This document shows, one piece after another, positions 23,190-25,616 of a DNA stretch of 64,000 nt. The stretch is from Robertkochia marina. Lineage in GTDB: Bacteria; Bacteroidota; Bacteroidia; Flavobacteriales; Flavobacteriaceae. The translations under genes were made by a program, and so were the position numbers. The stretch is from positions 806,001-870,000 of the forward strand of contig NZ_SSMC01000001.1 in NCBI RefSeq assembly GCF_004799345.1. Direction: 5' to 3'. The first letter of the stretch is position 1, and each line of letters starts with the position of its first letter. The notes beneath the pieces are model-generated. The model was not told where the DNA came from, made no database searches, and saw only the letters and a list, made by a program, of their open reading frames with translations.

Positions 23190-24548
23190 TTAAAACCTAA
23201 AACTAAAGCCTGTATAAACACCCAGAAGATAGGGGCTGAAACCTCCGGTATCTCCTGAGAATGTATTCCATTGATATTTGAACATGGGTTCAAGATTGAA
23301 CAGCAGTGCATCGCTGAAGCGATAATCAACGCCAACACCAAGATTGGTGCTGAAATTCAGTGAATTTACATTTGTTGCTGTTCCTAATTCTGTGTTTAGG
23401 GTCTCAGATTGCAGCATGATGCTGTTGTCAACCAGAAACAGTGAACTCAAACCTCCGATAAGGTGAAGTCCTATTTTGTTACCAACCATTTTATATTTTA
23501 ATTCAAGAGGCACCTCTACATAGCCCAGGCGTTGCGCCATATCGCCGTTATACCTTAGGTTGGCCTTGGGTACATCGGGAAGAAAGGCGTTTTGTGGTCT
23601 GCGTCCGAGATCATTGATGATAATATTGAGGTTGCTGCTTGCATAATCTATGTTCCCAACCCTGGCAGCAGGAGAAGCAGTGGGGGTATAGGAGACATCG
23701 TTAGTGGTGTATCCCATGGTTACCCTGTTCACCCCGGTTCGCAGGCTGAGCTTCTTGTTAAGATGGTAGGCAACATTGACCCCATAACTTAAATGGGTTT
23801 CTCCGCTTTTAGAATGATCGCTTAACCCGGGTTCGATCGGAGAGCCATTGTTCAGACTTCCGTAATATACCGGGGCTACCGCAGGGTAAACAACCCAATT
23901 GCCGGCTGCGTCCTCATTAATTTTCTCCTCATCGTTTGAAGCGAGATCCAGCAGGGACGGGGACTCTTGCGAAAGATCAGGGTGGTTTGCTGGCATTATG
24001 CCTGTTGTAAATGCATAATCCTGATACAGTACGATCGGTGTGGAAGCAAGGTATATTTCGCTGGTATAGCCGTAAGTAAAGCTTTGTGTGCTACCTTCAG
24101 GATTTACAGTCTCTCTTTGATTCAGCCTGTTTTGACTTCCTTTTGATTGGTTTCGGTCCCGGATGCTCCCTTCTGAAGATGGCGCTTCCTGTGGGGATGT
24201 TGCTATTGCTTTCCTTAAAGCTTCCGGCGTTGAAGATATTTGTATTGAGGTTTCGTCTTTTATTTGCTTATCAGGAGAAGAGGTTTGCTGTAAGGGGCTG
24301 GCGGTAATGATTGTATTGTTCTCCGGATTTTGGTTGGGGGTGTTTAGAAAGGAGCGCGCACCAAAAAATGCCACTCCCAGTAATGCGGCTACCCCCATGG
24401 CTCTTTTCCAGAATAGAGGGATGGTTTTTCGGTTCTCAGAAGCGTCGAGTTGATCTTCTATACCTGTCCACAGATCGCGGGCGGGACTTACTTCAAAATC
24501 TTTGAAGCGTTCCCGGTAAAGACGTTCGAGATCTTTTTCCTCTTTCAT
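23190..24548 (-). CDS. anti-sigma-like inner-membrane anchor joined to an outer-membrane-type beta barrel
   Basis: This 452-residue protein starts 2 bp after the ECF sigma gene. Residues 1-45 are charged and cytoplasmic-like, with RYRERFKDFEVSPARDLW in the place of an anti-sigma domain. One membrane helix follows (about 50-65), then a 150-residue low-complexity linker rich in Ser, Gln, Asn and Pro (about 70-215). From about 217 to the end it has alternating amphipathic strands of a PorT-like small barrel, ending in aromatic GFSFRF. Read literally, one chain could span both membranes and the periplasm and pass an envelope signal to the sigma factor. No zinc-binding anti-sigma motif is visible. 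The regulatory role comes from gene order. Confidence 0.78.
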   Translation of the reverse strand: MKEEKDLERLYRERFKDFEVSPARDLWTGIEDQLDASENRKTIPLFWKRAMGVAALLGVAFFGARSFLNTPNQNPENNTIITASPLQQTSSPDKQIKDETSIQISSTPEALRKAIATSPQEAPSSEGSIRDRNQSKGSQNRLNQRETVNPEGSTQSFTYGYTSEIYLASTPIVLYQDYAFTTGIMPANHPDLSQESPSLLDLASNDEEKINEDAAGNWVVYPAVAPVYYGSLNNGSPIEPGLSDHSKSGETHLSYGVNVAYHLNKKLSLRTGVNRVTMGYTTNDVSYTPTASPAARVGNIDYASSNLNIIINDLGRRPQNAFLPDVPKANLRYNGDMAQRLGYVEVPLELKYKMVGNKIGLHLIGGLSSLFLVDNSIMLQSETLNTELGTATNVNSLNFSTNLGVGVDYRFSDALLFNLEPMFKYQWNTFSGDTGGFSPYLLGVYTGFSFRF

Positions 24549-24550
24549 GG

Positions 24551-25093
24551 TTAATTTGTGCTTTTGATCACTTCTTTTATTTCATTTATGCGCTTGCGCA
24601 ATAAGGCTTTACCCCGGGCCAGATTTGACTTCGACGTACCTTCACTGATGTTCAGCATAGCGGCGATCTCCTTATGAGAGTAGTCGTCCAGTACGTAAAG
24701 ACTGAAGGTAATGCGATATTGATCCGGTAATTCCTGTACGAATCTTAATAACTGAGCCAAGTCAATATTTTCGTGCTCAACCCCTGCTTCTTCAGTTTCC
24801 GGCAGTTCCTGGGTGCCTACCAGCTCAAGAACCCCGTCTTGGCGATACTTTTGCAAAACCGTGGTAAGGGTTACCCTGCGCAGCCATCCTTCAAATGAAC
24901 CTTTAAATTTATATTGATCTATCCGATCAAATATCCTGATGAAGCTGTCTTGAAGGTTGTCTTCAGCCTCGCGACGATTACGGGAATAACGTAAGCACAA
25001 GGTATACAACTTGTCTCCGTAGATACGGTATAGTTGTTCCTGGGCTTTGCGATCCCGTTTCTTACAACGCGCTACAAGGTTTTTTAGCTGCAC
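24551..25093 (-). CDS. ECF-type RNA polymerase sigma factor
   Basis: This 180-residue protein has sigma region 2 (about 12-80, with YRIYGDKLYTLCLRYSRNRR and DNLQDSFIRIFDRI) and region 4 (about 118-172, with LPDQYRITFSLYVLDDYSHK and the helix-turn-helix SEGTSKSNLARGKALLRKR). Regions 1 and 3 are absent, as in group 4 (ECF) factors. It directs transcription of a specific regulon, released by a partner anti-sigma. The neighbour 2 bp downstream is the likely partner, and a lipoprotein gene precedes it by 22 bp. Confidence 0.93.
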   Translation of the reverse strand: MQLKNLVARCKKRDRKAQEQLYRIYGDKLYTLCLRYSRNRREAEDNLQDSFIRIFDRIDQYKFKGSFEGWLRRVTLTTVLQKYRQDGVLELVGTQELPETEEAGVEHENIDLAQLLRFVQELPDQYRITFSLYVLDDYSHKEIAAMLNISEGTSKSNLARGKALLRKRINEIKEVIKSTN

Positions 25094-25115
25094 CTGGTTT
25101 CTGATCAGTTTTAGT

Positions 25116-25553
25116 TTAAGGGGGTGTTATGACGGGCACCTCATAGATAAGAAATTCTTTCTCTCCATTTTCATTGGTACCTGTGTACAATTTAAACACA
25201 TATGTCCCGGTAAACAAAACCTCAAAATTAAAATATGCAATGATCGTCTCTCCTTCCAGTGACAGGCAATCGGATCGATTCAGCACAGAACCGATCGCGT
25301 AAACCGTTCTTTCGGTCGCTGTTTCACCGGTACGATAAAAGTCAAATCCTTCGAAATAGTGGCAATCACCGGGCTTGTTCATATGAACGTTAATACGGTA
25401 GATCTGACCTAACTCAAAACTGTCAGGAAACTCTGCGTCTACGATCTCAAGCGCTTCGAAGGAGTAACTGAAATCATTATCATCATTGAGATCACAGCTT
25501 TGAAAAGCGATGATCCAGGGAAAAATTATCAGATAAACCAGATATTTTTTCAT
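25116..25553 (-). CDS. lipoprotein of the ECF sigma locus, function unknown
   Basis: This 145-residue protein has a lipoprotein signal (about 1-20, ending IIAFQSC) and a compact beta-rich mature domain, with two further Cys at about 74 and 97 that could form a disulfide. It is the first gene of a tight group with the sigma factor and the barrel protein. It could be a sensor component or the founding target of the sigma factor; both are inference. I see no known domain. No TAnnTTTG box precedes it, which would suit control by the alternative sigma factor. Confidence 0.7.
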   Translation of the reverse strand: MKKYLVYLIIFPWIIAFQSCDLNDDNDFSYSFEALEIVDAEFPDSFELGQIYRINVHMNKPGDCHYFEGFDFYRTGETATERTVYAIGSVLNRSDCLSLEGETIIAYFNFEVLFTGTYVFKLYTGTNENGEKEFLIYEVPVITPP

Positions 25554-25616
25554 GCCATATGATGTAATGGTCTATCATATAGATGCAGAAATGTAGAAAT
25601 GGTTGCGTGGGAAAAT

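Follow-up and report, generated by a model that had tools for sequence, protein, structure and literature searches.

The operon described here is probably a Dma-type operon in which a sigma/anti-sigma pair regulates its own expression, with proposed sensing by a beta-barrel and a predicted output of lipoproteins. It lies in the window, which is the whole stretch of Robertkochia marina DNA that was analysed (64,000 nucleotides). Members of the published Dma family carry an N-terminal anti-sigma domain, a membrane helix, a disordered tether and a barrel on one chain, and have been reported only from Bacteroidota, where an ECF21 sigma factor is encoded adjacently (PMC13088901). A recent description of such proteins comes from gut Bacteroides (J Bacteriol 2026), and the locus in the window is likely a Flavobacteriaceae member of the family, compared by description with Dma1 and Dma2 of B. 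thetaiotaomicron. An earlier, sequence-only reading had started from the premise that in canonical anti-sigma systems the sensor and the barrel are separate proteins, and had suggested that the third gene product would be an unusual regulator. The premise does not extend to the Dma family, which joins both on one chain, and the protein matches this published class (PMC13088901). The class itself is known; what is new here is the conservation across the Flavobacteriaceae, together with a promoter and a regulon of lipoproteins predicted from it.

The operon and its first two products

The features of the locus are as follows (window coordinates).

25580..25608, minus strand: predicted ECF promoter of the operon, ACGCAACC-N15-CATCTA, a conserved motif whose end lies 26 bp ahead of the lipoprotein start codon (ATG)
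25116..25553, minus strand: small lipoprotein gene (ORF1, 145 aa, from the ORF call), with a lipobox ending at Cys20, an acidic tether and a predicted beta-sandwich
24551..25093, minus strand: ECF sigma factor gene (ORF2, 180 aa, GTG start), from PF04542, PF08281 and TIGR02937
23190..24548, minus strand: Dma-type anti-sigma factor gene (ORF3, 452 aa), a predicted spanner of both membranes, from domain order, synteny and conservation
24414..24548, minus strand: Dma residues 1–45, predicted cytosolic anti-sigma domain, from two predicted helices and conservation
24345..24401, minus strand: Dma residues 50–68, predicted inner-membrane helix, N-in, from the charge pattern
23901..24341, minus strand: Dma residues 70–216, disordered periplasmic tether, from low conservation and very low pLDDT
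23193..23900, minus strand: Dma residues 217–452, outer-membrane beta-barrel with eight predicted strands and a C-terminal Phe, from PF13568 and Foldseek

The lipoprotein and sigma genes are separated by 22 bp and the sigma and Dma genes by 2 bp, so that the ORF coordinates confirm the gene order and gaps given earlier. The span then assigned to the locus, 23190–25553, was right for the genes and left the promoter outside.

ORF2 encodes an ECF sigma factor, as profile searches matched PF04542 (5e-11), PF08281 (1.4e-15) and, above cut-off, TIGR02937 (3e-22). Its GTG start aligns with the starts of homologues that begin MSLEQL or MQLKKL. On the family model it scores 305 bits, compared with at most 150 bits for the paralogues in its own genome. 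The gene adjacent to Dma is thus of the ECF type, and the cognate sigma factor published for the Dma family is ECF21, a subgroup known here by description.

In the lipoprotein, ORF1, a lipobox-like FQSC ends at Cys20 and is followed by DLNDDND; the AlphaFold model is all-beta with a pLDDT of 84.1. No Pfam or PDB family was found for it, and Foldseek returned weak matches to Ig-like and other beta structures. Assignment as a NigD-like lipoprotein was rejected, as NF051862 matched at E 0.11 and over residues 3–40 only, the region of the signal peptide.

Distribution and a natural deletion

A search for the same fusion in other Flavobacteriaceae matched the Dma protein in 245 of the 299 family genomes, nearly always at full length among the matches listed, and the layout is nearly universal there. 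The genomes with the gene include Robertkochia, the genus of the window (four of five genomes), Sinomicrobium, Salinimicrobium and a Flavobacteriales MAG. Among 33 homologues, the mean frequency of the top residue is 0.61 in the N-terminus, 0.56 in the helix and 0.63 in the barrel, against 0.24 in the linker. The locus is therefore more than a chance arrangement, because 245 of the 299 genomes match and conservation is confined to the domains outside the linker.

Every one of the 39 loci for which upstream DNA was available (35 of them distinct) has the sigma gene directly upstream of the Dma gene, and all but one of the 35 distinct loci (34) have an ORF1 homologue before the sigma gene. Among the loci listed, recA is upstream of the operon in six and trpS downstream in four. 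When the search was extended to the class, matches to the Dma N-terminal domain appeared in many families of the Bacteroidia, with an ECF sigma gene directly before the match in 30 of 30 loci examined; in a few of these the sigma gene is cut off by the locus end.

One genome of the same genus, G003 (3.5 Mb, rated complete), is a natural deletion of the sigma/Dma pair. It keeps recA, the lipoprotein gene and trpS in order (L126, G003:C58:76500-82200), and sigma gene, Dma gene and promoter are all absent between recA and trpS; 11 other ECF-like matches are present in the genome. This layout ties the promoter to the sigma/Dma pair and shows that the lipoprotein does not depend on the pair. The orthologous sigma factor was also absent from the 33 Dma-negative genomes tested, in which the best score was at most 164 bits, the level of paralogues; eleven genomes that match Dma strongly scored 251–284 bits.

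The deletion bears on what the lipoprotein does. It could be the sensor, binding the barrel and keeping sigma off, in which case the operon would encode its own negative feedback; in nearly all family members the lipoprotein gene comes first in the operon, and it lies under one promoter with the regulator. However, the lipoprotein persists in G003, where both sigma and Dma are missing, and Salinimicrobium (L008) has unrelated lipoproteins at the position of the ORF1 homologue. The lipoprotein is therefore not a fixed partner of the barrel, and a sensor role is unlikely, although it retains some plausibility.

A second alternative is that Dma regulates sigma positively, being needed for activity as FecR is for FecI, and is not only inhibitory. 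FecR has a dual role toward FecI and sets a precedent, and the loss of sigma and Dma together fits such a requirement. Yet selection could in any case disfavour losing only the anti-sigma factor. In addition, the characterised Dma1 and Dma2 are inhibitors, as their deletion phenotypes depend on the cognate sigma factor (PMC13088901), and a positive role is improbable.

The promoter and its candidate targets

The motif ACGCAACC-N15-CATCTW sits before the operon in most family members and was not found in the literature searched. Of 39 homologous upstream regions, 28 contain its core, GCAACC-N15-CATCT, without a mismatch and another five come close to it, and a similar site precedes 8 of the 16 sigma genes of more distant Dma-like loci that have enough upstream DNA. 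The genome of the window has one match at up to one mismatch, which is exact and lies at the operon (G000:C1:831580-831608, minus strand). The full motif was found in 219 of 299 family genomes, while the reversed pattern gave single matches in 13 of 299. It is present in 218 of 245 Dma-positive and in 1 of 54 Dma-negative genomes (Fisher p 3e-37, ignoring kinship), a co-occurrence that is due in part to genome size and phylogeny because many Dma-negative genomes are small. The one Dma-negative genome with promoter matches (G265, same family) has three of them and no orthologous sigma factor was found in it, which could mean either a recent loss of the pair or an assembly gap. Position and co-occurrence together suggest that the motif is read by this sigma factor.

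Another ECF sigma factor or a DNA-binding regulator might instead read the site, with the operon as one of its targets. Each genome has several ECF paralogues, ECF regulons can overlap (PMC9723704), and a related site, GCAACC-N16-CGTCTA, accompanies a paralogue in the window's own genome. That site differs in spacing and in the −10 element, however, and 53 of 54 Dma-negative genomes lack the motif although paralogues are present, G003 included, which makes a different reader quite improbable. The paralogue is the closest to the sigma factor in its own genome, and the related site lies upstream of it (L052, minus strand near 1411); this site is nearer to the ECF promoters of the CGT type in F. 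psychrophilum. In that species, the ECF promoter class SM6, which has a CGT −10 box, is found upstream of a sigma/anti-sigma pair and has targets in type IX secretion (PMC9723704). Both systems belong to the Flavobacteriaceae and have a sigma/anti-sigma pair, whereas the site described here is CATCTW and its candidate targets are lipoproteins.

Candidate targets were taken from 60 further motif sites, picked by position only and avoiding operons, besides the loci of earlier searches. The count covers sites outside the operons where an ORF of 60 aa or longer starts 5–60 nt behind the −10 element (n=48). Lipoproteins stand behind 43 of these 48 sites by a fixed rule and behind 45 by eye (adding L189 and L194), compared with a background of 14 lipoproteins in 122 genes. 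They belong to several unrelated families and have a median length of 143 aa, with the ATG at a median of 20 nt past the motif. One aminotransferase-like gene (L144) is not regarded as a target and was kept among the 48 as a non-lipoprotein. Because ORF1 heads the operon behind the sigma-linked promoter and the other sites precede lipoproteins, it is likely a target of the sigma factor; sensor or target had been the roles first offered for it. With this consensus, no target other than the operon is found in the window's species.

A further 17 motif sites precede membrane peptides of 28–58 residues, for example MKILLIISVLIVVNLILLTFSVNKRTDP. Such peptides are conserved in many genera of the Flavobacteriaceae and fall below the size limit of most gene callers. 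Those of 28 aa were seen at L157, L160, L163, L165, L167, L170, L178, L190, L201, L206 and L215, and those of 35 aa, behind the same promoter, at L131, L132, L198 and L211. Separately, a second copy of the motif lies beyond recA and faces trhO in L127, L128, L142, L149, L156 and L118. This copy precedes an ORF of about 30 residues, usually ending in CKADGG, as well as a terminator-like hairpin; the genome of the window has no second promoter on the trhO side. Matches within or at coding DNA of the rfbD type (L153, L155, L210 and L216) were not counted as targets. Neither was a repeated element of G129, in which a motif-like pattern recurs in eight to nine identical copies (the nine-copy element) and which is probably outside the regulon.

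A broader reading is offered tentatively and with somewhat less than even confidence: the Dma of Flavobacteriaceae may be a core surveillance device for the surface-lipoprotein layer. Here, the barrel would report the status of the outer membrane or of its lipoproteins, and sigma would drive a dedicated set of small surface lipoproteins and an unannotated family of membrane peptides (28–35 residues) from one type of promoter. If this is true, the Dma class gains a defined direct regulon, with an output unlike the control of polysaccharide loci or of vesicles.

Topology of Dma and comparison with known systems

Dma has a single hydrophobic stretch, which is N-terminal (best 19-mer at residues 50–68, Kyte-Doolittle 1.72) and is flanked by four basic residues on its N side and none on its C side. 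Among homologues the helix starts at residue 40–59, and all 33 of them carry more K/R on its N side than on its C side, which favours an N-in anchor that is not cleaved off. Residues 1–45, in which P22, W27 and L34 are invariant among the 33 homologues, are predicted to form a cytosolic anti-sigma domain and thus a putative sigma binder. Profile searches with this domain gave no curated anti-sigma family above cut-off, and NF052375 (“anti-sigma factor”) matched weakly in 3 of the 33 homologues (best 0.0038). The linker is poorly conserved and comprises 147 residues here and 129–227 in homologues, without Cys; taking about 0.35 nm for each extended residue, the shortest tether would already measure about 45 nm and could cross a periplasm. 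The C-terminal domain matches OMP_b-brl_2 (PF13568) above cut-off at 3.7e-8 over residues 252–419, as do 31 of 33 homologues at E 0.1 or better, and it ends in ...GFSFRF.

The full-chain AlphaFold model, from a seven-sequence alignment, is of low confidence (mean pLDDT 42.5, very low in the linker) and was used for the strand count and as weak support only. It shows two N-terminal helices, a long helix at 45–69, disorder and eight long strands. Nearly all Foldseek matches of this low-confidence model are outer-membrane barrels, with weak E-values (best 7e-3), and they speak against a soluble C-terminus. The conservation profile, PF13568 and the C-terminal residues bear out the charged N-terminus, linker and aromatic-ending barrel proposed in the sequence-only reading. 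Its single helix also holds, although about 46–69 is a better position than 50–65, and one chain does appear to run from the cytosol to the outer membrane.

It is very doubtful that Dma is an ordinary secreted barrel with a non-regulatory N-terminus and a cleaved signal peptide in place of the helix, for although hydrophobic N-terminal signals are common among barrels and the window's own genome has seven PF13568 matches, residues 1–45 are as conserved as the barrel and always lie behind an ECF sigma gene, the N-terminal domain occurs without a barrel in other sigma partners, and the N-in charge pattern is found throughout the homologues.

For the autoregulated operon, the following cycle is proposed. 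The N-terminal domain of Dma would bind sigma and hold it at the inner membrane, while the barrel in the outer membrane would sense the state of that membrane or a ligand. Lost barrel insertion, tether tension or proteolysis might then free sigma, which would transcribe the operon that encodes it and, in genomes with further sites, additional genes for small surface lipoproteins and membrane peptides. Newly made Dma would reset the loop.

Parts of this scheme have counterparts elsewhere. In the FecR/FecA system, an event at the outer membrane steers an ECF sigma factor via a single-span protein of the inner membrane. FecR contacts a separate TonB-dependent barrel, whereas here the barrel is small (about eight predicted strands), is of the PF13568 type and not a separate TonB-dependent transporter, and shares a chain with the membrane helix. 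RseA is a single-span, N-in anti-sigma factor with an autoregulated sigma operon and envelope targets, and in these three respects sigma-E and RseA resemble the present pair. The periplasmic domain of RseA is sensed through DegS and has neither tether nor barrel; Dma has both.

The closest likeness is to Dma1 and Dma2 of B. thetaiotaomicron, which have in common with the present locus the predicted domain order, the adjacent ECF sigma gene, the small operon and an origin in Bacteroidota. Deletion of dma1 or dma2 is reported to raise vesiculation by way of Das1 and Das2, with Das1 exerting its effect through increased nigD1 (PMC13088901; Dma1 data also via PMC12596196). NCBIfam places nigD1 in a lipoprotein family, so that its induction parallels the lipoprotein targets found here. 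Compared by description, the present locus differs in its position behind recA, in its lipoprotein and in having a candidate promoter and lipoprotein regulon. In the literature covered here, Dma proteins have been characterised in a single gut species, without a known signal and with few direct targets. To this the locus adds a promoter and target list, a natural deletion in G003 and breadth across the Flavobacteriaceae for the Dma design, and signalling from an outer-membrane barrel to sigma through one tether becomes testable in a laboratory flavobacterium.

Variants of the layout were also observed. L093 and L095 encode the Dma N-terminal domain and membrane helix next to a sigma gene and without a barrel, as one-membrane versions of the partner. 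At L052 and L054, the window's own genome encodes sigma-adjacent proteins of this kind, which have a membrane helix and an N-terminal domain that is either the same or related, again with no barrel. In two Dma homologues, L080 (1387-3033) and L081, the N-terminal domain is present as a tandem duplicate.
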